Shown one piece after another: positions 34,047-50,348 of a stretch of 64,000 bases of DNA. The notes beneath the pieces were generated by a model that had not been told where the DNA came from, searched no databases, and saw only the letters and a list, made by a program, of their open reading frames with translations. The position numbers and the translations under genes were made by a program. How positions within the stretch are numbered: position 1 is the first letter of the stretch; each line of letters begins with the position of its first letter. Source of the stretch: Solirubrobacterales bacterium 67-14 (lineage in GTDB: Bacteria > Actinomycetota > Thermoleophilia > Solirubrobacterales > 70-9); assembly GCA_001897355.1 (NCBI GenBank), contig MKST01000007.1, positions 186,228-250,227 on the forward strand. Direction: 5' to 3'.

Positions 34047-34295
34047 ATGGCTAGCTTCAGCATCAGCAGCGCCCGGGAATCATTGGCCGAGGTCATCGAG
34101 CTGGCCCAGAACGAGGCCGTTCACCTCCAGCGCCACGGCAAGGACGCGGCGGTAGTGGTCAGCCCCGACCGTTTCGAGCGGATGATGGAAGCCCTCGACG
34201 AAGTCGAAGACGAGATCGCTTTCGACCTAGCCATGAGGGAAGAGGGCGAGAGCGTCCCCTGGGAGCAGGCCAAAGCCGACCTCGGCTGGGAATGA
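34047..34295 (+). CDS. Phd/YefM-family antitoxin
   Basis: 82 residues: ASFSISSARESLAEVIELAQNEAVHLQRHGKDAAVVVSPDRFERMMEAL is a Phd/YefM N-terminal DNA-binding domain, followed by an acidic tail (EEGESVPWEQAKADLGWE) that should neutralise the toxin. The stop overlaps the toxin ATG (ATGA). No ribosome site; a -10 box sits 7 bases before the ATG and is covered by an operator repeat. Confidence 0.9.
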   Translation: MASFSISSARESLAEVIELAQNEAVHLQRHGKDAAVVVSPDRFERMMEALDEVEDEIAFDLAMREEGESVPWEQAKADLGWE

Positions 34296-34552
34296 GCCGC
34301 TACCGAATCGAGATCCGCCCAGCGGCGATGAGGTCGCTACGAAAGCTCGACCCTCAGGTTCGACCTCGAATCCAGGGAGCCATAGCCCTCCTCGCCGAAG
34401 ACCCCCGCCCACCCAACGCCAGAAAACTAAGAGGCCGCGATGGCTACCGGGTAAGAGTCGGCAACTACCGAATCATCTACGCGATCAGAGATGAAGTCCT
34501 CCTGGTCACAATCGTCACCGTCGGCCACCGCCGCGACATCTACGAGCGCTAG
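34292..34552 (+). CDS. RelE/ParE-family toxin
   Basis: 86 residues: SRYRIEIRPAAMRSLRKLDPQVRPRIQGAIALLAEDPRP, then ARKLRGRDGYRVRVGNYRIIYAIRDEVLLVTIVTVGHRRDIYER, the complete RelE fold with the C-terminal GHRRDIYER expected of active mRNA interferases. Translationally coupled to the antitoxin. It is not close in sequence to the RelE at 30192, so the two modules are independent acquisitions or old duplicates. Confidence 0.92.
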   Translation: MSRYRIEIRPAAMRSLRKLDPQVRPRIQGAIALLAEDPRPPNARKLRGRDGYRVRVGNYRIIYAIRDEVLLVTIVTVGHRRDIYER

Positions 34553-34612
34553 TTGCCTAAACCTGGGAGAGATCCGTCCGTCAGAAAACCCGTTTTGAGC
34601 GACCTCCAGACC

Positions 34613-34888
34613 GTGGACCAGTTCCCGAGACAGGACGTAATCGACAGTGACAATGACCTCGAGTTGCAGAAGGAGCATCCCTGGCAGTGCGAGTCGCTGG
34701 ACCAGCGCAACTGGATGACCCGGATCAGAGACGAGGCGATCGCCGAGGGCGCAAGCCCGAACACCCATTGGCTCTACTTCAGGAGCCCCGATTCAACTTG
34801 GATGAGCGAATGCGGAACTGAAGGCTGGCTCCTGCTCGACTACCTCGATCTGAAACAGCACGAATACCTTGAGCGCGCAATGAGCTGA
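34613..34888 (+). CDS. Small conserved hypothetical protein, copy A of a duplicated family
   Basis: 91 residues from a GTG. It is about 60% identical by eye to the gene at 35838, with HPWQ, LDQRNWM, RDE, GAS-NTHW, YF-SP, ECG-EGWLL-DYL and C-terminal MS shared. The GTG was chosen because it aligns exactly with the ATG of copy B and gives the same length; a TTG at 34553 directly after the toxin stop would add 20 unmatched residues. No known domain. Tryptophan-rich and acidic, soluble. It is 60 bases downstream of a toxin gene, so it may share that operon. Confidence 0.65.
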   Translation: MDQFPRQDVIDSDNDLELQKEHPWQCESLDQRNWMTRIRDEAIAEGASPNTHWLYFRSPDSTWMSECGTEGWLLLDYLDLKQHEYLERAMS

Positions 34889-34951
34889 ACGTGCCGGCGC
34901 GCTGGCCGACCCTGCTTCCGACACGGGGCAGACTCACCCCCCGGTACTCGG

Positions 34952-34982
34952 GGGGAGAGTTTGGGTCGCTTATGCGTTATTG
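34952..34982 (+). promoter_or_regulatory. GGGGAGAGTTT - N14 - TTATTG motif, copy 1
   Basis: GGGGAGAGTTT (34952-34962) and TTATTG (34977-34982). The same pair with identical spacing occurs at 57131, and a close variant at 54827, each time between small genes. It may be a promoter for an alternative sigma factor. Confidence 0.3.
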
Positions 34983-35041
34983 AGGCATGGACGCTCGAGG
35001 ATCAACCCAGGTCGACCCTAGATGGCGATTCAAGCCAACCG

Positions 35042-35058
35042 GTATACCCAGGTATACT
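35042..35058 (+). promoter_or_regulatory. Operator and -10 box of the VapBC module
   Basis: GTATAC occurs at 35042-35047 and 35052-35057, one helical turn apart, as expected for a ribbon-helix-helix dimer pair. The second copy is part of the -10 box TATACT (35053-35058), 6 bases before the antitoxin ATG. Confidence 0.65.
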
Positions 35059-35064
35059 GGAGTA

Positions 35065-35292
35065 ATGGCAAAGGTGATGGTTTCGCTACCGGACGACCTG
35101 CTCGCCGAAGTGGACGCAGAGGCCAGGCGGCGCGGGAGCACTCGCAGCGGAGTCATGCGGGATTTCGCTGACCGTGCCTTGCGCGAACGCCGGGCAGCAC
35201 GCGCATCAGCGATAACTGCGCTTCTCCGGGAAGCCTCGGCCCACGGCGGCGGCTCGGCGGAACAGGTCAAACGGACACGACCTGAGCCGTGA
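35065..35292 (+). CDS. Ribbon-helix-helix antitoxin (VapB/CopG type)
   Basis: 75 residues. AKVMVSLPDDLLAEVDAEARRRGSTRSGVMRDFADRAL is a textbook RHH_1 DNA-binding domain: one strand and two helices. The rest is a short helix likely to bind the toxin. The ATG follows a near-consensus TATACT at 6 bases and the operator repeats overlap that box. The stop overlaps the toxin GTG (GTGA). A longer reading from 34987 would add 26 unmatched residues. Confidence 0.9.
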   Translation: MAKVMVSLPDDLLAEVDAEARRRGSTRSGVMRDFADRALRERRAARASAITALLREASAHGGGSAEQVKRTRPEP

Positions 35293-35690
35293 ACACCCTC
35301 CTTCTCGATGCCAGCGCCTTACTTGCCGCCTTCGACACCGAGGACCGGTACCACCGCGAGGCGCGGAAGATCATTGAAGACCTGGAAGCCTCCGTCGCCA
35401 CTCTCGACCTGGCCCGCTACGAAACTGTCAACGTAGCAATACGCGCATGGCAGAAGCCGGACCTCGTTCCGACTCTCCTCGCCGTCATTGACCGTATCGA
35501 TGACGACGGGGGCGTTCTCCCTTCCACCGCCAGACTCATCCAGCTCGCGGCCGACCTTGCCGTCGAACATGAGATCTCCGTCTATGACGCCACCTACGCC
35601 GCCGCCGCGATCGACTCAGGATCCCGTCTGATCAGCTGCGACCACCGAGACCTGATCAGCAAGAACCTCGCACAACCTCCCGGGCAGTAG
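35289..35690 (+). CDS. PIN-domain toxin (VapC type)
   Basis: 133 residues. NTLLLDASALLAAFDTEDRYH has the first acidic residue (Asp7), LARYETVNVAIRAW the second (Glu), and SVYDATYAAAAIDSGSRLISCDHRDL the remaining Asp residues of the metal-dependent PIN nuclease site. VapC toxins cut tRNA or rRNA. Coupled to the RHH antitoxin. All four acidic positions are intact, so it should be active. Confidence 0.92.
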   Translation: MNTLLLDASALLAAFDTEDRYHREARKIIEDLEASVATLDLARYETVNVAIRAWQKPDLVPTLLAVIDRIDDDGGVLPSTARLIQLAADLAVEHEISVYDATYAAAAIDSGSRLISCDHRDLISKNLAQPPGQ

Positions 35691-36239: not shown

Positions 36240-37331
36240 TCACGACGAGACCGGCCTCCAAAATGGAAGTTGACTGGCTGTCGTGTGCTTCTTGGTGACA
36301 ACGGCGACACTGAATCGTGCGCGTGTCACGGCGACGTAGAACTTAGCGGCAGTACCGTCAGCGAGCGCATCGCCATTCTCCAAATATTTTGTAATCGTGC
36401 CTGTCGGGTGTATAAGCACTCGATCAAATGCCTGGCCCTTCACCTGCCCGAAGTTTCGAGCTAGCGGTCCAGCGAGGGGAGAACGCCGGTCCCACCGTAA
36501 CTCCTGAGGAGAGAAGTTCTCAATGTATTCGGCAAGGTGGTCAGTATGGACCAGGAATACTCCCAGGTGATGGTCTGAGACGTCATTTAACGACGAAGTA
36601 CTTTGCATATCAGGGTAGATCGAGTCCGCGACGTCGCAGATAGCTTGGGTGCAGCGATAGCTCACGTCCATGTGCCTGAGGAAGCAATCGTCGCCTTCGA
36701 CCCTTTCGGTGATCCAGTCCACGAGTTTCGCTCCGCGGTACTGGCTGTTCTTGTTGGATCGGTTGGTGAGGTAGACAGACTGACGAGGGTCACCAACCAT
36801 TGTGATCTCGATTGACGAAACTAGCAATAGCTGCAACAGATCCAGGTCATATCCGGCCATGTCTTGGACTTCATCCACCAAGATCTGGTCGTACATACCC
36901 TCGAGGCGCTTCACGACCTTTCCGCCTGATGCTAAGTTGAGCTCGAATGCGAGATCGGAGACGGCGTCGCGGTATATGTTGTCGCTGCTGTCCAGGTAGT
37001 AGTTGTCGAAGTCATCGCGCCGAGCGAATGGCGGGTTCTGAGTGATGAAATTGATCGAGCGTATCCTCCCAAACCGTGTCTTGTAAGACTGGTAAGGCTT
37101 CACACCGTCTCGCAGAAGAAACTCGAACCATGTCATGGTCGTAACGCCTGGGGGCGGTCCAGATACCTTCTCCCAGAGTCGCGAGTTGATCTCGCGGAGG
37201 TTCTCGTTCGTGTAGGTGACGATCAGTGTGCGACGGTTCGGCTCCGAGAGGGCGGACTCGAGAAGGTATTCCGTCTTGCCTGAACCGGCTGCGGCAATAA
37301 CAGCCTCATTGGCCGATGCCATCAACCGCAT
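36240..37331 (-). CDS. Compact UvrD/Rep-like helicase (GajB-like)
   Basis: 363 residues, much shorter than UvrD (about 720) and also shorter than typical GajB (about 490). Superfamily 1 motifs are complete: Walker A IAAAGSGKTEYL (14-20), Ia TYTNENLREIN, II ILVDEVQDMAGYD, III MVGDPRQSVY, IV DVSYRCTQAI, V GQVKGQAFDRVLI, VI KFYVAVTRARFSVAV. The 1B/2B accessory domains are minimal. In Gabija, GajB acts with the OLD-type nuclease GajA, whose gene here lies immediately upstream and overlaps this one by 26 bases. It is the last gene of the seven-gene operon. Local GC is clearly lower than in the flanking chromosome. Confidence 0.88.
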   Translation of the reverse strand: MRLMASANEAVIAAAGSGKTEYLLESALSEPNRRTLIVTYTNENLREINSRLWEKVSGPPPGVTTMTWFEFLLRDGVKPYQSYKTRFGRIRSINFITQNPPFARRDDFDNYYLDSSDNIYRDAVSDLAFELNLASGGKVVKRLEGMYDQILVDEVQDMAGYDLDLLQLLLVSSIEITMVGDPRQSVYLTNRSNKNSQYRGAKLVDWITERVEGDDCFLRHMDVSYRCTQAICDVADSIYPDMQSTSSLNDVSDHHLGVFLVHTDHLAEYIENFSPQELRWDRRSPLAGPLARNFGQVKGQAFDRVLIHPTGTITKYLENGDALADGTAAKFYVAVTRARFSVAVVTKKHTTASQLPFWRPVSS

Positions 37332-38949
37332 CCTGGATGTACTGAGGAAACCGCAGATCTTCAGTTGTGTCGTGAAATGCTAGAGCCACGTCAGTCTTGT
37401 TGCCACTGGTTGTCATGAACTTCTCTGCCTCGGCAGGCGAGCCAAACGACCTCCCGAGAACATCGTTTACGAGATCTAGCCCACACGATGCGACTAAGTG
37501 AGGCTCCAAGGTTCTTAGATCGTTGTTATCGCTTCGGTGAATAGAAATAAAATCGTGAGACTGGTAGGGTGCGAACTTTGTGTCGACGTTCTCTGCGTAG
37601 TCGCCGTCGTTGTCGGTCACAACCGCAACTCTCCTCCTTAGGGGAATGGCAAGATCCAGGAAACGTTTGGCTGATAGACCTCGGACGTTGATGACGTCGA
37701 TACCGTCCTCGATCGGGCGCTTATTGTGCTTAGCGAGGTAAGCGCGTTGAATAATTAGTTCGTCGGATGGACCTTCCACGAGAATTACAGCTTTAGCAAG
37801 TACCAAGCGGAGAGTGTCGTATCCCGAGAGCTTTCTAAAATAGTTCTGTGTATCTTCAGGAAGATCGGTTGTTCGGGCCGCTCTGTCACCGTTTAGGAGC
37901 ATAAGGCGCTCCAGCCCCAACTTGTTGATGACGTACGAACTGTGCGTCGAGATGATTACCTGCCGTTCGCGACATTTTGCACTGATCTTCTCGATTAGCT
38001 GATTCAGAGCAGAAAACGATAGGTGGTTTTCGGGTTCTTCGATGAGGATTAGGTGTGCGTCTTCGAGTTTTCGGGCAAGAGCTAGCAGGATCTTCAGTTT
38101 GTGCTGCTCTCCGCTTCCCGAAAGATGGAACGGAAGTCGATCGAGGTGAGGCGCGATCACGCTTTCCCAATGGTTGGACTGAGACGAGACGATTTCCATC
38201 GTGAGCTGCTTGTCGGTGATCCGATCTTGGCTCGCATCAAGGGTGGCATTGATCGTCGCGATGGTGGGGTCAGACACGAATTGCTCCTGCAGCGTCCGAT
38301 ATCCGCGAGCAAGCTCGGCCCTTTGTTTGACGTCCAGGCTTTCGGTGATGATTCGCTGTAAGTAGTAGTCGGCGCCGGACTGGAGGCGGATCCTGGAAGC
38401 GTCGATAGTCGATGCAGCGACCTTTACTCCGCGAGCATTGACGACGCGACCCGCGAAGTCATACCAGTCAACACGGTAGTACTCGGTGGGGACAGATATC
38501 ACCTGATTCGGTTCGGCCACATATTCCGCGTACTCGGCGGTGAAGTCGGGGTCAAGGACGGCACTGACCCGCAGTCCTGGGGCATCTTCGCCCAGCGAGT
38601 TGTTCGTGCCCTTGAGAGCGAAGGTGTCGTCCGATTCAGCGAGGAACAGTTCGACAACGATTTCTGGTGGGGTGGGATTTCGTCCGTTTGAAACACCGTC
38701 GACATACTCGGCGGTGGCGGCAGAGTTGATCAGGTGCGGCGTTAGCTCGGAGGACAAGAGCTTGCCCTGCCACCGTCCGGTTAGAGCGAGGCTGATTGCT
38801 TCCAGAAGCGTCGACTTGCCGGCTTCATTGTCGCCCACGAGCATGTTGAGACCCGCCGAAAACTGAATTGTTGCGTCCTGAAAGCGGCGAAAGTTCTTGA
38901 TGACAATCTCGTCGATTACAGATGATGCGGCGGCATCCGTCATCTCCAC
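37306..38949 (-). CDS. OLD-family ATP-dependent nuclease, class 2 (GajA-like)
   Basis: 547 residues. ABC-type ATPase: Walker A LVGDNEAGKSTLLEAI (39-47), signature LSGSGEQHKLKILLALA (277-290), Walker B LILIEEPENHLS (300-311), His switch VIISTHSSYV. C-terminal TOPRIM nuclease: AVILVEGPSDELI with Glu392 and VVTDNDGDY with Asp446 to Asp450. OLD proteins with a neighbouring UvrD-like helicase are class 2 and form the Gabija phage-defence pair; length is close to GajA (about 580). It should nick or cut phage DNA when nucleotide is depleted. Overlaps the metallopeptidase gene by 10 bases and the helicase gene by 26. Confidence 0.9.
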   Translation of the reverse strand: MEMTDAAASSVIDEIVIKNFRRFQDATIQFSAGLNMLVGDNEAGKSTLLEAISLALTGRWQGKLLSSELTPHLINSAATAEYVDGVSNGRNPTPPEIVVELFLAESDDTFALKGTNNSLGEDAPGLRVSAVLDPDFTAEYAEYVAEPNQVISVPTEYYRVDWYDFAGRVVNARGVKVAASTIDASRIRLQSGADYYLQRIITESLDVKQRAELARGYRTLQEQFVSDPTIATINATLDASQDRITDKQLTMEIVSSQSNHWESVIAPHLDRLPFHLSGSGEQHKLKILLALARKLEDAHLILIEEPENHLSFSALNQLIEKISAKCRERQVIISTHSSYVINKLGLERLMLLNGDRAARTTDLPEDTQNYFRKLSGYDTLRLVLAKAVILVEGPSDELIIQRAYLAKHNKRPIEDGIDVINVRGLSAKRFLDLAIPLRRRVAVVTDNDGDYAENVDTKFAPYQSHDFISIHRSDNNDLRTLEPHLVASCGLDLVNDVLGRSFGSPAEAEKFMTTSGNKTDVALAFHDTTEDLRFPQYIQDAVDGIGQ

Positions 38950-39662
38950 ACCTCTTCAGTCAAGGGGGCCTCGTTGAGCTGGTCGCGGCGGCTGCGCCAG
39001 TCCGGTAGCTGCTTGTCCATGAGCTTGGTGAAGCGTTCGGTGTGGCTGCGTTCGAAGTAGTGGGTCATCTCATGGACGACGATGTATTCCAGGCAGTTGG
39101 GGTGCTTCTTGGCCAGTTCCAGGTTGAACCAGAGGTGGCGGGTTTCGCGGTTGCATGAGCCCCATTTGGTTTTCATGCGGCGGATCGTCCATTTCGGGAC
39201 GGTTACATCTAGTTTCGTCTCCCATTCCGCGATCAGCGCAGGGATTGCTTGGCGGAGTTGCTCCCTGTACCACCTGTCGAGTGCGACACGTCGTTCCTCG
39301 GTAGTTGCCTCGGGGGATGCGTAGAGAACCAGGCGTTCTCCGTCGATCTCGATGTTTGTGCGGCCGGGGCGCTCGACTACCTTCAGCCGTCGCCGTATGC
39401 CCCAGACATAGTGCGATTCGCCGGTGATCATCTCGCGTTCGCTCTGGCGCGACGCAGCTTGGAGTTTTTCACGTTGGCGTTTGATCCAGGACAGGCGCTG
39501 GATGACGGCGAGGCGTACCTGATCGTCATCGAGGCGTTCCGGGGCGGCAACCCGGACCCGCCCGATTGGAGGGTAGACCCCGATGTGGAGGTTCTTGATG
39601 TCCTTGTAGACGACGTCGACGCCGATTCCACGGACCGTGAGGTAAGCGTTAGCGGTACTCAT
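38940..39662 (-). CDS. YgjP-type zinc metallopeptidase
   Basis: 240 residues. IRRMKTKWGSCNRETRHLWFNLELAKKHPNCLEYIVVHEMTHYFERSHTERFTKLM is the YgjP/DUF45 catalytic region, with zinc ligands His197 and His201 (HEMTH, Glu198 as base) and His207. Members of this family are repeatedly found beside hsdR, but what they cleave is not established. Here it sits between hsdR and the OLD nuclease, overlapping both (14 and 10 bases). A role in processing or turning over the restriction subunits is possible but is inference. Confidence 0.9.
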   Translation of the reverse strand: MSTANAYLTVRGIGVDVVYKDIKNLHIGVYPPIGRVRVAAPERLDDDQVRLAVIQRLSWIKRQREKLQAASRQSEREMITGESHYVWGIRRRLKVVERPGRTNIEIDGERLVLYASPEATTEERRVALDRWYREQLRQAIPALIAEWETKLDVTVPKWTIRRMKTKWGSCNRETRHLWFNLELAKKHPNCLEYIVVHEMTHYFERSHTERFTKLMDKQLPDWRSRRDQLNEAPLTEEVWR

Positions 39663-42600
39663 CGCGGGCTCGTACGAGCTCGAACAGCTCGTCGAGCTGG
39701 TCGTAGTCCTTGGGCAAAGCTGTTCGAATCGCGTTACGGACGACGCGCTCTTTCATCGAGTTGCCAACCCAGTCGGCCGGCTTGCTTCGCAGCACTGCCC
39801 CATCGATTTCGACGGCAATACTTTCGTCGGGAGCAAAGAACTCGACCAGCGCACGTCGGGCACCGTTATCGGCCCAGGCTGGGTACTTGGTGTCTGATTC
39901 TTCGGTGCCGAGCTTCTTGGCGGCATCGAGCAGCCTTGCGAGGTAGTCCTTGTAGTCGAGAGCATCTTGGCGGTGTTCTTCGATGAGGGCGTCGAGCAGT
40001 TCACTCATGCGGTCGTAGTACTTCGGGTTCATCGGCCGTTCGTCGATGATCACTTTCCGCATGTTGTTCGTGATCGTCTCCGCAACCGCTTCGGGGTCTT
40101 TCTTGATTCCCTCGGGGAGCTTCTCGATCGCTCCGGCGCCCATTTTGACGATCAGGTCGATCAGGCCAGCATCCTCAAAGTCCGAGACGACCTCGGACGC
40201 GTCGGCCTGGATGTAGGTGTCAAGCAGGAACCTCATACCGGCTTCGTACTGCTTGAAATCGACGTCCTCACCGGCACCAAGCTTCACCTCGGCGCGAACA
40301 TCGACGTAGTGCGCAACCTCCTGCCTGATTTTCTGGGCTTCCTCAGCGGTGTATCCGGCGGCGGTCATTTCGTTGGCGAGGTTGCCGTAGGCCCGGCTGA
40401 CCGAAGCGACCGCCTTGTAAAGCTCGACCCGCTTCGGTTCGTTGGCCTTCAGCTGCTTGAAATTGCCCTGCTCCTGCGCGCAGAAGTAGTGCTGATATTG
40501 GAGTGTCCCCCTCGGGGGCATGACCGGCTCACACAGTGCTCGGATCCGTTCCAGCGCTTCGTCGAGGTCTTCACCGGCTTTGTCGATCCGGTCGGTGAGG
40601 AGACCTTCGATGTCTTTCTTCTCGTAGCCGTCAAGAGCACCGGAGGTGTAGTCATCGACAGCGTCTTCGATGGAGTTGAAGAGATCCTGGTAGTCAACGA
40701 TGTATCCGTAGTCCTTATCCTCACAGTCGAGGCGGTTGACCCGGCAGATCGCCTGGAACAGCCCGTGGTCGCGCATCTTCTTGTCGATGTACAGGTAAGT
40801 GGCAGATGGCGCATCAAAGCCGGTCAGGAGCTTGTCGACCACGATCAACAGACGCAACTGGCCAGGGTCATTCACGAACTGCTCTTTGACTTCCTGCTCG
40901 AACAATTCGACCTTACCCATGGCGCTGTCCTCGGACTCGTCGAAGTAGTCAGCAAGCATTTTCCGGTAGATGTCGTACTGGCGAAGCTTCTCCGTCTTGC
41001 CCTCACCGGAGTCTTCCTTGGAGATGTCGCTCGCGTTCGGCTCGTAGCTGGTGACAATCGCGCACTTCCCCTCGAATCCGGCCGAGACGAACATCTCGTA
41101 GAACTTGCAGGCCTGGTAGATGCTCGAGCCGACGAGCATGGCGTTTCCGCGCCCGTCCATCAGGCGGGGCTTTGAGCCCATGTCGATCAGGATGTCGTGG
41201 ACGATCTGTTTGGCACGAGGCTCTGCGGAAACGACCTTTCGCATGGTTCCCCAGCGCTTCTTCAGCTCTGCCTTAGAGAGGTCAGTCATGCCCTTGGTCT
41301 TGAGCTCAAACCACTTGTCGACCTGCTGCGGGGAAGTCAGGTGCTGATCGATGTTCCGGGCCTCGTAGCGCAGGTCAAGCACCACGCCGTCACCTACAGC
41401 TTCATCGAATTTGTAGGTGTGGATGAACGAGCCGAACGTCTCGATGCTCGTCGCCTTGTCTGCCTTCAGCAGTGGGGTGCCGGTGAACCCGATGAACATC
41501 GCCTCCGGCAGAAGCTGCTTCATAGCCCGGTGCATCTTCCCTGACTGGGTGCGATGCGCCTCATCAACGAAAACGAACAGATTCCCCTTGGCCGAAAAGC
41601 CTTTCGGTACCGCGGCATTCAGCTCAGCGATGAAGTCCTCACTGTCCTCGTCCAAAGCCGATTCTTCATCGGAACCACGGAACTTGTGGACGAGTGAGCA
41701 GATCAGCCACTCTTGAGACCTGTTCAAAGTGTCGAGCAGGTCCGCACCGCTCTTGGTGCGGTAGATGTCCTCGCTGACGCCCTGAAAGACCCCTTCGATC
41801 TGCTCGTCAAGCTCGGTGCGATCCGTGATCAGCAGGACCCTCGCATCGTCCTGGTTTTCCCGAATCCACTTGGCTAGCCACACCATCGTCAGGCTCTTAC
41901 CGGAACCCTGGGTATGCCAAATGATCCCGCCCTCACGCTTGGCAATCCGCTCCTGGGCGGCTTTCACGCCGAAATACTGATTGTGCCTGGGGGCCTTCCT
42001 GATCCCGGCGTCAAACACGGTGAAGTCATGGATCAGCTCAAGAAAGCGGCTCTTCCCGCACATCTGCACCAACGCCCGATCCAACGGCTCCGCGATATCG
42101 GAGTCTTCCTTCCATTCCAGCCAATACTTCTCCGGTGTTCCGATTACCCCATACCTCAGCCCCTCAACGTCATTGCCCGCAAAAGCGAACTGGACTGTGG
42201 AAAAGAACGGCCGGATGAACTCTGGCTTCTGGTTTCCGATGTTCTGCCTGATTCCCTCCGCCACAGAAACCTTCGACCGCTTCAGCTCCACCACCCCGAG
42301 CGCCAGACCGTTGACGTAGAGAACGACATCCGGACGCTTGGTGTGCTGACCCAGGACCGTTACCTCTTCGGCAACGGCAAAATGATTCGCTTCAACGTTT
42401 TTCCAGTCGATCAGCCAAACCGTCTTAACCTGCTCGCCGATTCCGGGCTTCACCTTCACGCCATAGCGCAGCAACTCATATACATCCCGATTCGCCTCGT
42501 ACAGGTCGTGCCCAGCACCAACCGAGGCCGCTTTGCCGAGCTGATCGAGGGCACGGTTGATCAAGTTGTCGTCGTAGCCGCGCGCCTTGAGGTTTTGCGT

Positions 42601-42735
42601 CAGCAGGTCAGTTTCGACGCCTGCCATCCGATCTCCATCGTGCCAGTCGCCAAGATAGTCGTAGCCGAGCCGGTCACGAAAGAGGCCAACGATGCGATTC
42701 TGTGCCATGCGTTCAATCTGCCCTACGTCACTCAC
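39649..42735 (-). CDS. hsdR: Type I restriction enzyme R subunit
   Basis: 1028 residues. N-terminal PD-(D/E)XK nuclease: Asp136 in RPDVVLYVNG, Glu150 and Lys152 in GVVELKRS. SF2 translocase: Walker A IIWHTQGSGKSLTMVWLA, DEAHRTQ box, FTGTPLL, and motif VI-type VNRLDCEDKDYGYIVDYQDL; a helical C-terminal region binds the methyltransferase core. It translocates DNA and cleaves it at a distance from unmethylated recognition sites. GTGA overlap with the TIGR02391 gene upstream. All catalytic residues look intact. Confidence 0.95.
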   Translation of the reverse strand: MSDVGQIERMAQNRIVGLFRDRLGYDYLGDWHDGDRMAGVETDLLTQNLKARGYDDNLINRALDQLGKAASVGAGHDLYEANRDVYELLRYGVKVKPGIGEQVKTVWLIDWKNVEANHFAVAEEVTVLGQHTKRPDVVLYVNGLALGVVELKRSKVSVAEGIRQNIGNQKPEFIRPFFSTVQFAFAGNDVEGLRYGVIGTPEKYWLEWKEDSDIAEPLDRALVQMCGKSRFLELIHDFTVFDAGIRKAPRHNQYFGVKAAQERIAKREGGIIWHTQGSGKSLTMVWLAKWIRENQDDARVLLITDRTELDEQIEGVFQGVSEDIYRTKSGADLLDTLNRSQEWLICSLVHKFRGSDEESALDEDSEDFIAELNAAVPKGFSAKGNLFVFVDEAHRTQSGKMHRAMKQLLPEAMFIGFTGTPLLKADKATSIETFGSFIHTYKFDEAVGDGVVLDLRYEARNIDQHLTSPQQVDKWFELKTKGMTDLSKAELKKRWGTMRKVVSAEPRAKQIVHDILIDMGSKPRLMDGRGNAMLVGSSIYQACKFYEMFVSAGFEGKCAIVTSYEPNASDISKEDSGEGKTEKLRQYDIYRKMLADYFDESEDSAMGKVELFEQEVKEQFVNDPGQLRLLIVVDKLLTGFDAPSATYLYIDKKMRDHGLFQAICRVNRLDCEDKDYGYIVDYQDLFNSIEDAVDDYTSGALDGYEKKDIEGLLTDRIDKAGEDLDEALERIRALCEPVMPPRGTLQYQHYFCAQEQGNFKQLKANEPKRVELYKAVASVSRAYGNLANEMTAAGYTAEEAQKIRQEVAHYVDVRAEVKLGAGEDVDFKQYEAGMRFLLDTYIQADASEVVSDFEDAGLIDLIVKMGAGAIEKLPEGIKKDPEAVAETITNNMRKVIIDERPMNPKYYDRMSELLDALIEEHRQDALDYKDYLARLLDAAKKLGTEESDTKYPAWADNGARRALVEFFAPDESIAVEIDGAVLRSKPADWVGNSMKERVVRNAIRTALPKDYDQLDELFELVRARDEYR

Positions 42736-43463
42736 GAGATTGCCTCCACTTGGGCCGCATCAACCCACCTGGCCAGCACACTCAGCGTCGCGAGATACTC
42801 AAGCGCCTCCTGCTCAGAAAGCTCCTGATCTGCCTCATGACTCAAAGGATTTCGGATGCCGGCGAAGACACCCTCAGCGAGGGTCATGGCACCACGCTGA
42901 ACCGACTTGTAGGTATCGCCCCCGTCATCCTCCAAGCGCCGCAGGCGAGCTTTGCCGGACTTCGGGGCGTCCAGCGAGAACGCTTGCTTGAACAAGTCTG
43001 TCTCGCTCACATCGCGGCGACCAACCTTGTTTTGCGTCTCCGCGTTCAACTTCTTGATAGCACCCTCTACTGCCTCACGGTAGTGACCGGACTGCCAGAG
43101 CGACTTAGCGCCGCTCCAGACCCAGTCGTGTAAATCGGCGGCGGACAGCTCAGGTGCATTCTCACCGAGATTCTCGCGAACTTCTTCCTCACGGAGTAGC
43201 TCTTCCTTTGCGCGTATAGCCGCCTCGCGATGTCTCGTCCAGCGATTGGTAGAAGACAGCTCAATCTCCGTTCGCCAAGACGACACCACACGGTCAAGGA
43301 TCTTCTCAACAACCTGGGCCTGCTTGGTCACATCAGCATCTGAAGCAGCCGTGCTGGACTTGTTAGAGATGGCCACATATCCAGCACCGCTACGACTGTT
43401 GTTCGTCATCACTGTCATGTCGATGAACTTGTCCAGCTCCTGTATCGCCCAACCTGTGTTCAT
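42732..43463 (-). CDS. TIGR02391 (Ymh) family protein
   Basis: 243 residues. The C-terminal half, VWSGAKSLWQSGHYREAVEGAIKKLNAETQNKVGRRD then QRGAMTLAEGVFAGIRNPLSHE, is the Hypoth_Ymh/TIGR02391 domain, a HEPN-like helical unit with the terminal RNPLSHE sequence. The N-terminal part is a helix-rich segment without clear relatives. Such genes are often found in type I restriction operons, though their job is unknown; the RNPxxH pattern recalls HEPN RNases. It overlaps hsdS and hsdR by 4 bases each. Confidence 0.88.
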   Translation of the reverse strand: MNTGWAIQELDKFIDMTVMTNNSRSGAGYVAISNKSSTAASDADVTKQAQVVEKILDRVVSSWRTEIELSSTNRWTRHREAAIRAKEELLREEEVRENLGENAPELSAADLHDWVWSGAKSLWQSGHYREAVEGAIKKLNAETQNKVGRRDVSETDLFKQAFSLDAPKSGKARLRRLEDDGGDTYKSVQRGAMTLAEGVFAGIRNPLSHEADQELSEQEALEYLATLSVLARWVDAAQVEAIS

Positions 43464-44689
43464 GAAGCTGCCTCCACGGGCAAGCGAATGCGGCCGGTCA
43501 GGAGTTGCTGCATCATGCCGGTTTTAGTATCGCGAGCTTTGGCCAGACGAGCCTGGTGTACTCTGATCTCCGCATCACAGTCGGCCAAGACAACGGCGAT
43601 GGCTCGCTGCTCATCAAGTTCGAAAGGCAGCGAGATCGGGATCGAACGGAGCTGACCACCGTTCAATGATGGCAAAGCTCCCGTTGCCACGAGCGAACTC
43701 ATCGGAAAGTCGGACAGGAGGTAGTGCATGAAACGCACATCCACGCGCTCTTTGTCGACGACGTAGGCCGCCATGTTGTTGTCTATACAGCTAGGTATGG
43801 TCAGTATTCGCTTGCGCTCCAGAAATACCGCCGCGCCCACCTTGGCGAACACGATCGCTTCCGCCGGCATGAGCGCAGCGGCCATCGACTTTCGCTGAGA
43901 CTCGGTGATGTAATTGTTCGCACGGCGCATGAATAGCTCATTGCCTTCGTTATTCATGTCCGAAACCTTGAAAAACGGGATAGGGCCAGAAGCCGCACCC
44001 TGGTACCTGGGCGCGAACCCACTTCCGCCTTTGAACGTTCCGAGGTCTCCGGCGCGCAACTCGACCCAGTCGCGACTAAATCCTGGAAGGCGGGTGCGGC
44101 CGGTGAGGAGTTGCTGCATCATGCCCTGCTTGATCGCCTGCTTCTTAGCGATAAGGCGGTCGAGGGTGGCGATCAAGTCGTCTGTATTCTGGCTAACGGA
44201 CCCGATTTCGCGCTGCTGCTCAATAGGCAGGTCTGGGACCTGGATGGAACCAACCTGCCGGAAATTCAATCCTTGGCGATTACCGCCCGCTTGGAACATG
44301 TCAATCTGGCTCTGACCCGATCGAGACAGCAGGAAGGCGTTCAAGAATCGTGGATCCATTCGTCCAGGATTCAGTCGGATCTCGCATACGTGCTGATTGA
44401 CGTTACCGCCGTTCAACGCGGGAGTGGCAACCGCCGATCGGCCAATCGATGCACCGGTAATGTTGAGAAGTACGTCTCCGGTACGAATTTCTGTAGCTGG
44501 AAAATTCGAGTGAGTCGCCTCATCGATATATGCCATGTCAGCCAAGCGCAGGTCACCCCAGCCTACGTTCTGACTGCGGATGAACGGCCTGCCTGCCGTC
44601 TTGTAAACAGCCGAACCGCCGCGCGGAGTGATTCCGCTCCCGATCTTTGTCGCCACATCAGCAAGACGAACGGTTGACACGCTCATCAC
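43460..44689 (-). CDS. hsdS: Type I restriction enzyme specificity subunit
   Basis: 409 residues in two target-recognition halves. Half 1 (1-190) starts VSTVRLADVATKIGSGITPRGG; half 2 (200-409) starts LPGFSRDWVELRAGDLGTFKGGSGF. Both end in the conserved repeat MMQQLLTGR(T/I)RLP that forms the spacer coiled coil. It selects the bipartite DNA sequence for both methylation and cleavage. The start is GTG (4-base overlap with hsdM) or the next ATG (1-base overlap). The target sequence cannot be predicted from here. Confidence 0.94.
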   Translation of the reverse strand: MMSVSTVRLADVATKIGSGITPRGGSAVYKTAGRPFIRSQNVGWGDLRLADMAYIDEATHSNFPATEIRTGDVLLNITGASIGRSAVATPALNGGNVNQHVCEIRLNPGRMDPRFLNAFLLSRSGQSQIDMFQAGGNRQGLNFRQVGSIQVPDLPIEQQREIGSVSQNTDDLIATLDRLIAKKQAIKQGMMQQLLTGRTRLPGFSRDWVELRAGDLGTFKGGSGFAPRYQGAASGPIPFFKVSDMNNEGNELFMRRANNYITESQRKSMAAALMPAEAIVFAKVGAAVFLERKRILTIPSCIDNNMAAYVVDKERVDVRFMHYLLSDFPMSSLVATGALPSLNGGQLRSIPISLPFELDEQRAIAVVLADCDAEIRVHQARLAKARDTKTGMMQQLLTGRIRLPVEAAS

Positions 44690-47121
44690 TCGACCCCCAT
44701 CGCGGCGAGGTGTCGAGAAACCTGCGCTTCCAGGCTCTGGAGCTCGGCATCAAGACTGCCAACAGTAGCGGCATACCGCTCGCCGAGCTGTTGGATACGG
44801 GCTACGAGGTTCAGGGTGAGTGCTTCGGCTTCGCCGGCGATTCGGTGCAGAACTGTTGCCTCCCACTTGTCGTCCAGTACGAGGGCCTTGACGTCTTCCT
44901 CCGTCAGGTCGCCGTACTTCTCTAGCGTGGCGATGTCGAGTTCCGCCTGGGCGCTCTTGAGGTCCTTCTTGGCGGCGGCTTCGGCGTTGTACAGCTTGCC
45001 GGCCTGTTTCAGGGCTTGGATTTCGTCTGGATCGCCATCGTTCTTGACCGCTTTCAATCGCGCGGTCACGAGCGCCTTGGAGATCTTCTCGTCATCCGTG
45101 GCGTCGGCAAGTAGTCCGTCCTCGATGGCGTGTTCTTCGACGTACTCCTCGACAGCACGAGTGGCTTCCTCGGCAGCGGCGGTGAGTTCATCGACCGTGG
45201 CCTGCTCGTCGGCGAAGTAGCGAGCGACGACTAGGCGAGGCGGGATGAGATCCATCTTGTACTTCTGGGCTTTCTTGCCGGTGCCGATGGTGAGGTCGGG
45301 TTCTTCAGTGAGTTTGCGTTCTTTGTCGTTTATGGTCAGGCGCGGCTTGGCGGCGTCGGTCCAGCCGTCATTCATGATGAGGAAGATGTCGTCGTGCATT
45401 ACTTCCTGCCAGTAGGTCATGAGCTGCTGGTAGGCGTCGTACTCGTCAAGGAGTGGCAGGCTCTTGAATCGAGCCAGAAAGTCGTCGCCAAGCTGCTGAA
45501 TCAGATCGCCCGGCACGGTGTGGGCGTTGATGTTGGAGAGGGTCTCGCGGTGGTCTGCGAACCAATCGTCGACAATTTCAGCGGCCTGGTCGCGAAGCTT
45601 GCGAAAGCCTGGCGCTTCAAGGATGGTGTTCTGAACCTCGTTGGTTTCGACGGCTAGGTCGCTGTAGCCGGGACGGTTCGGCTTGAAGAGTTGGTCTCGT
45701 AGTTCGGGGAATGACTCCCAGTAGTCGCTCAGTTGATCGAGGTCGTGGTTGGGGATGCCGCCGTGGATGTGGGCGTGGAGGTCCTGGAGGTCTTCTGGTT
45801 CGGATGAGTCGATGTAGCGCGGGATGTTGAGGTTGAAGTCGTTTTTCTCATCGGCGATTTCGCTCATCGGGACCATGCGTGAGTAGCGGTCGATCTCGAT
45901 TTGCTTGTTGAAGGTGTCGACGATCTTGTGGATGTCCTGGCTTCGGAGCCGGTTCTTGTTGCCGTCCTTCACGAAGCCTTTGGAGGCATCGATCATGAAT
46001 ACGCCGGTGCGTGCCTGGGCGTTTTCCTTGTCGAGCACGACGATGCAGGCGGGGATGCCGGTGCCGTAGAAGAGGTTGGCGGGCAGACCGATGATGCCCT
46101 TGATGAAGCCTTGCTTCAGGAGGCGGGTGCGGATCGTGGCTTCGGCGTTGCCACGGAAGAGCACGCCATGCGGCAGGATGATTGCTCCCTTGCCGTTGCT
46201 TTTCATCGACTTGAGTGCGTGGAGAAGAAACGCGTAGTCGCCGTTCTTCTCGGGCGGGCGTCCGTATTCGAAGCGGCCATACTCGCTTTCCAGGCCGGTA
46301 GTCCAAGCTTTTTCCGAAAATGGCGGATTCATCACGACGTAGTCGAAAGTTTTGAGGCCCGTACCTGAGCTATCGAGAAACTGTGGTGAGGAGAGGACGT
46401 TTCCCTTGCGGATATCGGCGATCTCGTTGTCGTGGAGGATCATGTTCATCTTCGACAAAGCCCAGGTCGCGTTGTCTTTCTCCTGTCCGTATACGGTCAT
46501 ACCGCGCGGCGCTTCATCGGCGGCCTTGAGTAGCAACGAACCCGATCCGCAGGCAGGGTCGTAAACGGTTTGGTCCTGGCGGGTTTCGCTGCCTATACCG
46601 ACGACTTTGGCAAGGATCTGAGACACCTCGGCCGGGGTGTAGAACTGCCCCTTGCTCTTGCCGGATTCGGTCGCGAAGTGCCGCATCAGGTACTCGTAGG
46701 CGTCACCGAGGAGATCGTCGCCCTCGGCACGGGAACCCTGGAAATCGAGGTCGTTGAAGATCGTGACGAGCTTGGACAGCACGTCCTGCATATCCTTGCC
46801 CTTGCCGAGTTTTTCCTCGTCGTTGAAATCCGCCTGGTCGATCACGTTCCGGAGATCGTTGGCCTCCGCGAGCCTGGCGATGATCTTGTTGAACCGGTCG
46901 CCGATCTCCTTATCGCCCTTCGCGGCGAGCATGTCATCGAAGGAGCCGCCCTCGGGAACGTCGATGAGGCTGTCAGGGTTGGCCTTGGCCTTATCGGAGA
47001 CGTACTTGACGAACAAAAGGGTGAGGATGTAGTCCTTGTACTGGCTGGCATCCATGCCTCCTCGAAGCTGATCGCAACTTGCCCAGAGCGAGCGGTAGAG
47101 ATCCGATTTTTTCAGCGCCAC
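44686..47121 (-). CDS. hsdM: Type I restriction enzyme M subunit (N6-adenine methyltransferase)
   Basis: 811 residues, longer than the usual 500-700 because of a charged C-terminal extension with likely coiled coil (KDLKSAQAELDIATLEKYGDLTEEDV and QLGERYAATVGSLDAELQSLEAQ). N-terminal HsdM domain from residue 8; SAM motif I DPACGSGSLLL (188-198) and catalytic NPPF (265-268) are intact. It methylates adenine within the HsdS target to protect host DNA. First gene of the seven-gene operon. GTG start with AAGGA about 9 bases upstream. Confidence 0.95.
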   Translation of the reverse strand: MALKKSDLYRSLWASCDQLRGGMDASQYKDYILTLLFVKYVSDKAKANPDSLIDVPEGGSFDDMLAAKGDKEIGDRFNKIIARLAEANDLRNVIDQADFNDEEKLGKGKDMQDVLSKLVTIFNDLDFQGSRAEGDDLLGDAYEYLMRHFATESGKSKGQFYTPAEVSQILAKVVGIGSETRQDQTVYDPACGSGSLLLKAADEAPRGMTVYGQEKDNATWALSKMNMILHDNEIADIRKGNVLSSPQFLDSSGTGLKTFDYVVMNPPFSEKAWTTGLESEYGRFEYGRPPEKNGDYAFLLHALKSMKSNGKGAIILPHGVLFRGNAEATIRTRLLKQGFIKGIIGLPANLFYGTGIPACIVVLDKENAQARTGVFMIDASKGFVKDGNKNRLRSQDIHKIVDTFNKQIEIDRYSRMVPMSEIADEKNDFNLNIPRYIDSSEPEDLQDLHAHIHGGIPNHDLDQLSDYWESFPELRDQLFKPNRPGYSDLAVETNEVQNTILEAPGFRKLRDQAAEIVDDWFADHRETLSNINAHTVPGDLIQQLGDDFLARFKSLPLLDEYDAYQQLMTYWQEVMHDDIFLIMNDGWTDAAKPRLTINDKERKLTEEPDLTIGTGKKAQKYKMDLIPPRLVVARYFADEQATVDELTAAAEEATRAVEEYVEEHAIEDGLLADATDDEKISKALVTARLKAVKNDGDPDEIQALKQAGKLYNAEAAAKKDLKSAQAELDIATLEKYGDLTEEDVKALVLDDKWEATVLHRIAGEAEALTLNLVARIQQLGERYAATVGSLDAELQSLEAQVSRHLAAMGVE

Positions 47122-47169: not shown

Positions 47170-48516
47170 CTAAGGCGTCCGAACCAATTCGGGCCGAACG
47201 GGCGGAGTCGACCTGAAACGACTATTCGGAGCGACGATCCGAAGAAGTTGCGCCTTTGCCGAGTCGACATCGGGTGCGTACCGGTCGAATCTCACCCGAT
47301 GCCCGAAATTGGTGGCCCATGGTCCGTGGTCATTGGCGGACGCTTCGTCTCGGGGATGTTCCGGGTACGCCAATCCACCCAGCCGGACCTCTGGATGGCC
47401 AGTCAGATACGAGGTGAGCTGGTAGAGGTCGCCTCGGTCGACCCCGTGTGGACTGCCCTGCCTCCCTCGGAGTCGCTTGTATTTCGCGTCGATGACTGCG
47501 GTGACATTCCCGGTCTCATCCCGAATCAGGATGTCCGGCTTGAGTCGTCCCATCGTCGCTCCGGGCTTTGTGGTCGACGTAAGCAGGAAAGCACTCTCCC
47601 CCTCACTGGTTCCGTGCTCCACTCTCGTTGCCCCGAAGGCGAGTCGCGCGCAGTGGACGAGGAAAAGCTCCCATAGCTCGGCGACATCGATCAGTACACC
47701 GGATATGTCGTCTCGCTCAGCCGACACGAGGTGACCACGCTTCTTGGCAATCTCCATCGAGAAGGATGCGAGGGACTGAAAGGGACGGGTGATCGGGGAG
47801 TAGCGGACTCGTCGGAGTTCCGTCTCGTGAGGCATCCCAGGGGCTGATCCGACGGCCTGACGAAGATGGGAGAGCGTTTCCTCGCAACGATCCGGACGCC
47901 ATTCCGGACGCTCGCCGATCATGGAACAGAGCGTTCGGTCGGCGAGGACGAGAATCTTCGACACCGGATTCTCAAGACTCCTTTCGGAACGAACCGTGGA
48001 GACGAACGGTTTGCCCTCCGCTCTCAGTTTCACCGTCTTCCCCACATCCAACCGGTCGCGCACATACGGACCTCTGTTCACGACGGTGCGGCGAACGCGA
48101 GGACCACCGTGCCGCGAAGCATCCGCAACCGCGGCGGACCAGATTCGATCGATCAGTTGAGCGATCATCGGTCCTTTGCCGCTTCTGGTGGCACTCTTGG
48201 GGATTACATTCAAGTTCAGGGCGTATGACAGCCACTGGCCGATCACGTCCATTCCCAGCCTCGGCTCGATCCGTAGCACCCGATCTTCGAACCTGAGTTC
48301 GCCTATGAATCGACCCGCCCACCAGGTGCCAAAAGTGTCGCGAGAAAGCGCCGGGAGGTCCTCGTCGTCATTCCGGGCCGCACCCGCCAGGTGGAGGACG
48401 TGATCTTCGCCATACAGGCGTTCAGCGAGGCGACCAAGCCACTGATCCGTCTCGGCATCAACTTCCGCGTTGGGCGAAAGGTCCTGGAATACGACCTCCG
48501 TCTTGGGTTCGCTCAA
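47170..48516 (-). CDS. mcrC: McrC-like endonuclease subunit
   Basis: 448 residues of the McrBC 5-methylcytosine restriction system nuclease subunit. TFGTWWAGRFIGELRFEDRVLRIEPRLG is the N-terminal DUF2357-like part; the PD-(D/E)XK core is GRLKPDILIRDETGNVTAVIDAKYKRLRG with Asp328, Asp343 and Lys345. McrC cuts methylated DNA when driven by the McrB ring. Start overlaps mcrB (4 bases). 48 bases separate its stop from hsdM, so read-through into the type I operon is possible. Confidence 0.9.
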   Translation of the reverse strand: MSEPKTEVVFQDLSPNAEVDAETDQWLGRLAERLYGEDHVLHLAGAARNDDEDLPALSRDTFGTWWAGRFIGELRFEDRVLRIEPRLGMDVIGQWLSYALNLNVIPKSATRSGKGPMIAQLIDRIWSAAVADASRHGGPRVRRTVVNRGPYVRDRLDVGKTVKLRAEGKPFVSTVRSERSLENPVSKILVLADRTLCSMIGERPEWRPDRCEETLSHLRQAVGSAPGMPHETELRRVRYSPITRPFQSLASFSMEIAKKRGHLVSAERDDISGVLIDVAELWELFLVHCARLAFGATRVEHGTSEGESAFLLTSTTKPGATMGRLKPDILIRDETGNVTAVIDAKYKRLRGRQGSPHGVDRGDLYQLTSYLTGHPEVRLGGLAYPEHPRDEASANDHGPWATNFGHRVRFDRYAPDVDSAKAQLLRIVAPNSRFRSTPPVRPELVRTP

Positions 48517-50348
48517 GTCGCGGTCCCTCTGAGGAATACATCCCGAAGACTGTCGATCTCGGATCTGGCGGAATCGGCGTCGATCCCGGCCAGGTATTGC
48601 TCGAGCAGCGGCCGCACCGAAAATTCCCAGAGGTCTTCGATCGATGTCTTGGGATTGCCCGACTTCTGCCAGAAGACGCCGCCCGTCAGTTGCTTCACGC
48701 CCTCAAGGCTGTGGCCGGCAAAGAAGGACGCGTCGAAGAAATAGGTATGGCCGATGACGTACTGGCTGCCGAGATGCGGAGAACGCTCGATCGCTTCGTT
48801 GAGAAGCGATGCCCGCTCAGCGAGCAATTCCATATCTCCGACCGCCCTATCCCACCCGTATTTCGACGGTGCTTGTTCGGGCCAACGCGACTCGTTCACC
48901 GCGACGATTGACGTGGGATCGAATCCAGCTGGACGCCAGAAAAAGCGCCGCCTCAGAGCGAAATCGATCTCCTCGACGGATTGATCGATCAGGTTCATCG
49001 TGCCGATCACATAAAGGTCCGCTGGCAGCGAAAGCGTGGTCGAATTGCCCTCGTCATCTTGCCCAGGCAAGGTCAGCGGCTTGTCCCGGTTTTCGAGCAG
49101 GCTGAATGCCTCTCCGAAGAGTCGGCTGAGGTCCGCGCGATTGATCTCGTCGAGGACCAGGACGGTCGGGAGCCTGGTTTCCACAGGTTCTTTTTCGATT
49201 TCGCTGACAAGGAGGGGCAGGAAACCGTCCACGTATTCGGTGCCACCGTTCGCGTTGAGGCGAAGTCCACGCACGAAGTCTTCGTAGCTATAGGCGGCGT
49301 GCAACTGCAACCAATGGATGCGCCCTTTGGTTTCCCGTTCAACACGATCCTGCGAGGCGAAGAATTCACCGGCACCCCATTTCCGGAGTGCAGCCTGTCG
49401 AATGAGACTTGATGCGAGCTCCCGGGTGCGATGGGTCTTGCCGGTGCCGGGAGGCCCGTAAAGCACCATCTGCTTCTTGTATTCGAGAAGATCGAGATCA
49501 CTCGTACCTTCGCTTCGTGACGAGCTCGAATCCCAGATCTGGTGCAACGGCGGATGGTAGAAGTCGAGGATTCCCTGATGTGCGTTTGGCTGGGCGCCCA
49601 AAGCCACCAGCTTCTCCCGAATTCTCAAGATCCGCTCGTCAAGATCCTCTGGCCCGGGCTCGTCTCCGAACAGGTCGCCTTCGAATGCCCTGACGATGTT
49701 CTGCTTGTGGGTCTGGCTCGACATCCGCTCGAACTCATCCGGGCGAAGCAAGTGGAGCAGAACATGGCGCATCTCTCTGACCTGGATTCCCTCGGCGGCA
49801 TCGTCGGCGAAATCCCTGAGGCGCCACGGGTCATTCAGCAGTGCCTCCCGGTCCTCCCGAGCCTCGATGGCTTTGAATCTGAGCGTGAAATCCAGCAGGT
49901 ATCCGATCTGCCGGTCCCTGTGAATGTTGTAGCCAACCCCGGGATTGCCGATCCCGTAGTTCATTGTTTCCGCGATCTCTTCCCACGCAGGTGCCTCGGT
50001 CAGATCCAGAGGCCCCGCGACTCGAAAAAGTAGTTCCCGCTTGGCAGGCCCTTCGATGAGGCGCCGGGCGAAGAGGAAGTAGACGATCAGCAGCTCGACC
50101 GCTAGCCACCGGACGTCGTCAGGTGCCTCTTCGAGCTGGACTTCTATCTTGCCGCTGAAGTCCAGTTCGGTTCCGATCATCGGGTTCTCAAGGAAGCGAG
50201 ACTGAAAGTCCCTCAGGTTCGGCTCGGTCCACACCGGACGATCGCCCCAGAGGATCGACCCGGAGTCGACCAGGCAGTCCTGCTTCCACCGGTCGGCGAC
50301 TTTGTCGATAAGTGTCCTGCTTGAGTCAGGATCAATAAATCTCGCCAC
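48513..50348 (-). CDS. mcrB: McrB-like AAA+ GTPase/ATPase subunit
   Basis: 611 residues. The N-terminal 280 residues are a recognition region without a recognised reader domain. AAA+ core: Walker A MVLYGPPGTGKTHRTRELA (298-305), Walker B VLVLDEINRADLSRLFGEAFSLLE (Asp400-Glu401), sensor YVIGTMNLIDQSVEEIDFALRRRFFW. The DEINRADLSR and NLIDQS sequences are McrB hallmarks. It binds modified DNA and powers translocation for McrC. GTG start; 7 bases after the preceding nuclease-like gene. Confidence 0.92.
   Translation of the reverse strand: MARFIDPDSSRTLIDKVADRWKQDCLVDSGSILWGDRPVWTEPNLRDFQSRFLENPMIGTELDFSGKIEVQLEEAPDDVRWLAVELLIVYFLFARRLIEGPAKRELLFRVAGPLDLTEAPAWEEIAETMNYGIGNPGVGYNIHRDRQIGYLLDFTLRFKAIEAREDREALLNDPWRLRDFADDAAEGIQVREMRHVLLHLLRPDEFERMSSQTHKQNIVRAFEGDLFGDEPGPEDLDERILRIREKLVALGAQPNAHQGILDFYHPPLHQIWDSSSSRSEGTSDLDLLEYKKQMVLYGPPGTGKTHRTRELASSLIRQAALRKWGAGEFFASQDRVERETKGRIHWLQLHAAYSYEDFVRGLRLNANGGTEYVDGFLPLLVSEIEKEPVETRLPTVLVLDEINRADLSRLFGEAFSLLENRDKPLTLPGQDDEGNSTTLSLPADLYVIGTMNLIDQSVEEIDFALRRRFFWRPAGFDPTSIVAVNESRWPEQAPSKYGWDRAVGDMELLAERASLLNEAIERSPHLGSQYVIGHTYFFDASFFAGHSLEGVKQLTGGVFWQKSGNPKTSIEDLWEFSVRPLLEQYLAGIDADSARSEIDSLRDVFLRGTAT

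Follow-up and report, generated by a model that had tools for sequence, protein, structure and literature searches.

Do genes that overlap one another from end to end of an array encode a single machine, or may they be several systems that share a message? The question is raised by a defence array of Solirubrobacterales bacterium 67-14, situated in a 64,000-nucleotide stretch of contig MKST01000007.1 (positions 186,228 to 250,227) that we refer to as the window. Here seven minus-strand genes, hsdM, hsdS, a Ymh (TIGR02391) gene, hsdR, ygjP, an OLD nuclease gene and a gene for a UvrD-like protein, overlap by 4, 4, 4, 14, 10 and 26 bases respectively when first start codons are taken (Table 1). 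This order and these overlaps were reported in a preliminary description and are borne out at the same places by the open reading frames (ORFs) of the window, although some of the lengths depend on the start codon chosen. The description went further, proposing that complete overlap implies one mRNA and fixed stoichiometry, and that the YgjP protease and the OLD/UvrD pair are working parts of the restriction system. We consider it likely instead that the array is a stack of three defence layers, namely a type I core accompanied by YgjP, a swappable effector in the slot between hsdS and hsdR, and an independent short Gabija pair, the three probably sharing one transcript.

Type I restriction-modification (R-M) enzymes methylate self DNA and cut unmodified DNA. 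The hsdM, hsdS and hsdR genes are encoded together here with intact catalytic motifs (NPPF and DPACGSG in HsdM; VVELK, GSGKS and DEAH in HsdR), and YgjP has the PF01863 domain with an HExxH motif (HEMTH). The family labels are backed by Pfam, PADLOC and NCBIfam, the last without a YgjP match; YgjP has no match among Protein Data Bank (PDB) sequences.

The proposal that the protease belongs to the restriction system is supported in the sense of a partnership with HsdR. The ygjP gene lies directly after hsdR (PADLOC family PDLC03044), in the same place and orientation, in 42 of the 43 loci whose downstream sequence is available: the window, eight of nine others from its own phylum (L085 is the exception; L and G numbers denote loci and genomes), L153 and L154, 15 of 15 from the phylum to which the Rhizobiales record L015 belongs, and 16 of 16 plasmid regions. 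The underlying search found this hsdR in 13 of 396 genomes of its own phylum, its own included, in 14 of 394 genomes (15 places) of the L015 phylum, and in G827 and G842 as the sole long matches among 60 other genomes. Matches at contig ends (L061, L071/L088 and L072/L089) were left out, and the 43 loci include some redundancy, with L157/L158 and L156/L159 near-identical and L074–L076 about 97% alike. The plasmid regions were picked after annotations were visible, from 40 listed hits among 478 records matching hsdR, and without them the adjacency stands at 26 of 27. In an unselected plasmid check all 27 best-ranked hsdR matches (H81–H107) recur among the YgjP matches, as do 31 of the best 40 of the 478; the other nine are partial or about 30% identical hsdRs.

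The two genes overlap in 37 of the 42 loci (in L078 by annotation, from which its YgjP was also counted). The 14-base overlap of the window recurs in eight related loci (L073–L077, L083, L153 and L154), and 11 bases are common elsewhere. Of 41 extracted YgjP ORFs 40 have HExxH, and the one without it comes from the broken locus L164, whose hsdR has an in-frame stop; in L109 hsdR lies in two frames, and in L086 it ends 275 bases before ygjP. Against five relatives hsdM, hsdR and YgjP are 68–79% identical and hsdS 29–36%, the divergence of YgjP being about that of hsdR and hsdM. Since the genome holds a second YgjP gene elsewhere, the copy in the array looks like a dedicated one. Moreover G827, of the same family, and G842, of the same order, have hsdM-hsdS-hsdR-ygjP with the slot empty and without Ymh, OLD, UvrD or McrBC. 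These gene neighbourhoods support YgjP as a putative dedicated partner of HsdR. The link may reach beyond the PDLC03044 family, as in the one distant case opened, a Klebsiella quasipneumoniae plasmid (H119/L246, 4510–13872) with a 29% identical hsdR, the order is hsdM-hsdS, YecA-family gene, cold-shock-domain gene, hsdR and SprT-family protease gene, the last overlapping the end of hsdR by 4 bases. No paper on an HsdR-linked YgjP (COG1451) was evident in searches of one open-licence library, and COG1451 reportedly appears in an early defence-island survey. An Acaryochloris plasmid locus (L116) has McrC and AAA genes after ygjP and a YhcG nuclease gene between hsdM and hsdS, which are other insertion places within the same operon family.

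The slot between hsdS and hsdR is occupied by at least one ORF of at least 100 amino acids in 20 of the 31 loci where hsdS is recognisable as an ORF of its own. This count leaves out 12 of the 43 loci, 11 without a recognised hsdS and L154 (G842), in which hsdM and hsdS are fused into one 1231-amino-acid ORF upstream of hsdR-ygjP and the slot is empty. The occupants are mostly toxin or defence families, amounting to about ten effector families across the relatives. They are Ymh/HEPN (window, L075), GIY-YIG by annotation (L074, L076, L077; accompanied by DUF4357 in L077 and L084, and by PADLOC PDC-S14 in L077, the only locus tested for it), Schlafen/AlbA (L155, L158, L167), zeta toxin (L156, L159, L163), Fic (L081, L161), GmrSD/DUF262 (L079, L158), Uma2 (L086), a CD-NTase with a two-transmembrane effector (L114), DarT with a macro domain (L115), a weakly LmuA-like protein (L078) and two small ORFs without family (L110). 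Judged from DNA comparison, the clearest slot exchange is a natural swap within one strain, Rhodococcus sp. p52, whose plasmids pDF03 (L075) and pDF01 (L076) are 95% identical in DNA over hsdR-ygjP (10001–13799) with Ymh in the slot of one and GIY-YIG in that of the other, homology resuming at the first base of hsdR.

It is plausible that Ymh is likewise a slot gene. It overlaps both neighbours by 4 bases, is 76% identical to one compared slot relative, and stands between hsdS and hsdR in three loci (window, L075 and L225), the last with an hsdR of another family, no YgjP match and again 4-base overlaps; in seven loci (L216–L218, L226–L229) Ymh occurs without a recognised hsd gene in the fetched stretch. 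The HEPN-type RNase motif RNPLSH, at residue 204 of 243, is intact, fits the C-terminal Rx4-6H of PrrC/RloC and is retained in slot and stand-alone relatives. A comparison with PDB sequences gave one match at an E value of only 0.12, and a viral-contig scan gave no Ymh relatives. At the two slot junctions (43460–43463 and 42732–42735) hsdS ends VEAAS and Ymh ends VEAIS, with GGAGG embedded, and hsdS likewise ends VEAAS in an empty-slot Mycolicibacterium locus. The similar codons could be a duplicated joint left by cassette exchange, and a ribosome-binding sequence at fixed distance before the next start would explain the likeness equally well.

In the Escherichia coli prr locus, which encodes the type IC enzyme EcoprrI and the PrrC anticodon nuclease, prrC lies between hsdS and hsdR. 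A HEPN RNase gene sits inside a type I locus there as well, whereas in the array described here a ygjP gene follows hsdR. According to passages in PMC3710099 and PMC12707154, the restriction enzyme holds PrrC in an inactive state, and PrrC becomes active once that enzyme is inhibited by T4 Stp. Ymh is not a PrrC and would at most be PrrC-like in role. Sections of PMC3710099 and PMC3506569 place Ymh (PF09509) among HEPN domains found solo or fused in operons with R-M genes, there mainly as fusions to paraMORC ATPases, whereas here it is solo and in a slot shared with other toxin families; sections of PMC3506569 also propose repeated toxin displacement in R-M loci and a coupling of immunity and suicide modules. 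Defence genes embedded in type I loci are thus already known, and include TgvAB of Vibrio cholerae VPI-2, two genes inside a type I operon that protect when expressed without the operon, and RloF, between hsdR and hsdS; sections of PMC11411939 describe TgvAB and cite both RloF and, from Payne and colleagues, genes that lie within other defence clusters. TgvAB is GmrSD-type whereas the window slot is HEPN, and in these sections Gabija is not mentioned for TgvAB. The present comparison adds a protease partner that is nearly constant, an exchangeable slot in which a swap is observed, and evidence for a general independence of the Gabija pair at the end of the array.

This last evidence concerns the OLD and UvrD-like genes, which resemble Gabija in that an ATPase-TOPRIM nuclease is followed directly by a UvrD-like protein, PADLOC models naming both. 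OLD has the ABC ATPase and TOPRIM parts of a GajA. Its Walker A, Walker B and TOPRIM residues are invariant across nine aligned proteins, E390 and D444-N-D446 being among the invariant positions. The UvrD-like protein has superfamily 1 (SF1) helicase motifs, and its AlphaFold model (predicted local distance difference test, pLDDT, 93) matches UvrD/Rep and GajB. GajB has two core and two accessory subdomains according to sections of PMC10681800; compared with the 494 amino acids of the solved GajB the version here has 363, with the accessory parts apparently reduced, and sequence matches to solved Gabija proteins are weak.

We sampled relatives of OLD at 52 loci in genomes and plasmids and 19 in viral contigs, counting among the matches listed. 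Genome contigs supplied 32 (L013–L044) of 47 listed, 15 weak ones having been dropped before counting, and 19 of 45 listed viral-contig loci passed 150 bits. Two loci (L009/L120) are near-identical, some contigs stop short of 10 kb, L127 is a weak match of 169 bits that lacks UvrD, and OLD or UvrD frames are split or disrupted in L008, L011, L026 and L029. UvrD directly follows OLD in 49 of the 52 (two of the other three end at a contig edge) and in 17 of the 19. An hsdR lies within about 10 kb in two of the 52 and one of the 19, in a different gene order each time. As far as the fetched flanks reach, 68 of the 71 have no hsdR near OLD, detection having been by seven query proteins, which a very divergent hsdR could escape. 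Of the 32 genomes with the locus 12 were tested, and in seven of these the present model gives no HsdR match at E ≤ 1e-20. Conversely, at the 42 other hsdR loci the short pair does not occur within the examined stretch, which spans 8.5 kb upstream and 6 kb downstream of hsdR unless the contig ends sooner; near hsdR the OLD profile matches weakly in L077 (32 bits), L078 (39, a longer Gabija) and L164 (40).

In the window, L014 and L023 OLD is linked to type I genes, and none of these three OLDs has its nearest relative among the other two. The best OLD match has 52% identity, as against the higher values given above for hsdM, hsdR and YgjP; the divergence of the pair is unlike that of the hsd genes, and its G+C is slightly lower. 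Among plasmid records 1637 match OLD (E ≤ 1e-40) and 68 the short UvrD (E ≤ 1e-20). The scarcity of the latter seems due to divergence, since of 30 records sampled evenly from the 1637, 23 carry a feature under the match that is named UvrD. Two of these plasmid copies, both enterobacterial (L244, L245), have the overlapping pair with no hsd gene annotated within 10 kb. Elsewhere an opposite-strand McrB-like gene (L005, L018) or hsdM-like gene (L035) lies nearby without hsdR. Judged by these relatives, the pair appears generally independent of hsdR, and we reject OLD/UvrD as restriction subunits on their gene neighbourhoods as far as fetched, the seven of 12 tested genomes without an HsdR match and the lone plasmid copies. 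The preliminary description had named separate promoters together with no co-occurrence with hsdR in relatives as grounds for giving up its proposal, and it is the second half of this that we find, there being no general co-occurrence. In Bizionia arctica (L023) the space between hsdS and an hsdR of a different family is taken up by OLD-UvrD together with an AbiE-like pair.

Taking these observations together, we infer the following roles. In the first layer YgjP would most likely destroy or strip HsdR that is stuck on, or attacking, the cell's own DNA, in restriction alleviation or the removal of DNA-protein blocks; a weak SprT-like match, under the Pfam cut-off, would fit a protease of the latter kind. 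In the second, Ymh is most likely a latent HEPN RNase that would halt growth once a phage blocks restriction, as PrrC does. The third would be a short Gabija pair captured behind ygjP and working independently.

Several observations weigh against this arrangement of layers. YgjP is found in 43 plasmid records (E ≤ 1e-20) as against 478 with hsdR (E ≤ 1e-60), many of the latter distant hsdRs. Unlike PrrC, Ymh lacks an ABC-ATPase part, only PF09509 being found in its 243 amino acids, and its AlphaFold model alone is unusable (pLDDT 38). As YgjP is present in 10 of 11 empty-slot loci, protease and slot gene need not cooperate. Type I genes lie near OLD in L014, L023 and L187, and a longer-type Gabija lies 189 bases before hsdM in P. 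juntendi (L078), such that a Gabija-type I link beyond chance is possible. Finally, an OLD ATG overlaps ygjP by 4 bases, and OLD has about eight extra N-terminal residues compared with most relatives; this extension and the ATGA start suggest an adaptation to translation from the hsd mRNA, which would mean shared expression and not shared function.

How far the overlaps themselves can be interpreted is limited by the rest of the window, where five further same-strand pairs, counted for the most part at the level of ORFs only, overlap by 4 bases. We therefore rejected overlap length as a sign of shared function; the overlaps indicate probably one transcript and not one machine. Of the earlier inference, one transcript with translational coupling is suggested by the short overlaps, but fixed stoichiometry does not follow. 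The lengths can be shorter than those given above: 4 bases (ATGA) for OLD/ygjP if OLD starts at ATG 38943, 1 base for hsdS/hsdM from ATG 44686, and 17 bases for UvrD/OLD from 37322. The OLD/ygjP overlap itself is secure because both in-frame starts within the first 35 codons of OLD fall inside ygjP. The seven overlapping genes are genuine, but they do not make up a complete unit, since the run of genes on this strand goes on upstream of hsdM through McrC-like, McrB-like and PDC-S11-like genes. The gap from hsdM to the McrC-like gene is 48 bases, the McrC-like and McrB-like genes overlap by 4, and 7 bases separate the latter from the 381-amino-acid PDC-S11-like ORF, possibly the first gene of the run. 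The McrBC-like pair has the AAA motor (GPPGTGKT) and the McrC nuclease (a D-x14-DAK stretch), with the NCBIfam McrB model below its cut-off.

This continuity makes it possible, if less probable than three layers, that the McrBC-like, type I, HEPN and Gabija genes are one regulated island with a promoter upstream of 51501, all being induced together and coordinated at the level of expression only. From 51501 to 36240 everything is on the same strand with only the two short gaps and otherwise overlaps, and there is a weak promoter-like site at 51649–51622. However, the promoter scan overall is no better than shuffled sequence (two sigma-70 consensus sites in the region as against a shuffled mean of 5.0, none inside the seven genes), and the close relatives G827 and G842 lack McrBC. 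Terminator-like sites in the region lie about one standard deviation above the shuffled mean.

It is rather unlikely that the array reflects pure stacking of defence genes, selected for co-expression or co-transfer alone, with no non-hsd product, YgjP included, contacting the restriction enzyme. The great variety of slot genes would agree with this, as would the toxin-antitoxin-like, McrBC-like and Gabija genes lying side by side here, but the constancy of ygjP in place and orientation would not. Less likely again is that HsdR-YgjP is the true unit, with YgjP joining the three Hsd proteins of this type I family as a fourth core subunit and acting as a proteolytic switch that, once a phage disables HsdR, cuts or releases the slot effector (HEPN, Fic, zeta, Schlafen, DarT, CBASS or others). 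Least likely is one integrated restriction machine of seven gene products, in which OLD/UvrD would serve in backup cutting and the protease in subunit turnover: the continuous overlaps, the lack of a consensus sigma-70 promoter inside the seven genes, the OLD start embedded in ygjP and the type I genes near OLD-UvrD in three relatives favour it, but the 68 relatives and the 42 other hsdR loci in which the association is absent as far as the examined stretches reach, the tested genomes without an HsdR match, and the divergence and G+C of the pair all oppose it.

As regards the surroundings of the array, G+C drops from about 0.67 to 0.53–0.63 across 34000–58000, as expected of an acquired island. 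Two small toxin-antitoxin-like pairs (34047–35690) flank the array, the ParE-like and PIN-domain ORFs each overlapping their own upstream ORF by 4 bases, and an HNH endonuclease gene that weakly matches a model for type IV restriction is divergent from it. Flank matches for an empty chromosomal site were fragmentary and mostly on separate contigs.

Table 1. Coordinates of the array genes, of flanking genes and of other overlapping ORF pairs in the window
Feature	Position	Strand	Description	Supporting matches
UvrD-like	36240-37331	-	short UvrD-like SF1 ATPase, GajB of short kind, 363 aa (amino acids)	PADLOC GajB PDLC00148 383 bits
OLD	37306-38949	-	OLD-family ATPase-TOPRIM nuclease, GajA of short Gabija kind, 545-547 aa	PADLOC GajA PDLC00102 643 bits; OLD-like_TOPRIM 3.3e-13; PF13175, PF20469
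ygjP	38940-39662	-	YgjP-like zinc metallopeptidase, 240 aa	PF01863 4e-59
hsdR	39649-42735	-	type I restriction/translocase subunit, 1028 aa	HSDR_N, SWI2/SNF2, T1R_D3; PADLOC REase_I PDLC03044 1451 bits
Ymh/TIGR02391	42732-43463	-	243 aa, hsdS-hsdR slot	PF09509 5.6e-34
hsdS	43460-44689	-	specificity subunit, 409 aa	PF01420 5.1e-15 (one stretch); PADLOC Specificity_I, residues 7-407
hsdM	44686-47121	-	type I DNA adenine methyltransferase, 811 aa	PF02384 7.6e-102, HsdM_N, PADLOC MTase_I 1240 bits
McrC-like	47170-48516	-	nuclease subunit, upstream in same-strand run	PF10117 2.5e-21
McrB-like	48513-50348	-	AAA protein	AAA_5 9e-17; NCBIfam PRK11331 (McrB) 86 bits, cut-off 637
PDC-S11-like	50356-51501	-	PADLOC defence candidate, 381 aa	PDLC04916 2.5e-13; Pfam: no match
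ParE-like	34292-34552	+	toxin-antitoxin-like pair	
PIN-domain	35289-35690	+	toxin-antitoxin-like pair	
HNH endonuclease	51746-52573	+	divergent from array	
ORF pair	13205-15166/15163-16626		4-base overlap	
ORF pair	23348-24619/24616-25380		4-base overlap	
ORF pair	32067-32645/32642-33982		4-base overlap	
ORF pair	34047-34295/34292-34552		4-base overlap	
ORF pair	34987-35292/35289-35690		4-base overlap	

The analysis corrects the attractive but unsupported inference that overlap means one machine, and two better targets take its place. One is the protease that almost always partners a widespread family of HsdR, and the other is the single slot that in relatives holds about ten effector families and whose uncharacterised genes make good candidates when new defence effectors are sought. 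Should a single trigger be common to the slot effectors, they could be compared within a fixed sensor background, and this would provide a clean test of the coupling of immunity and suicide proposed in sections of PMC3506569.

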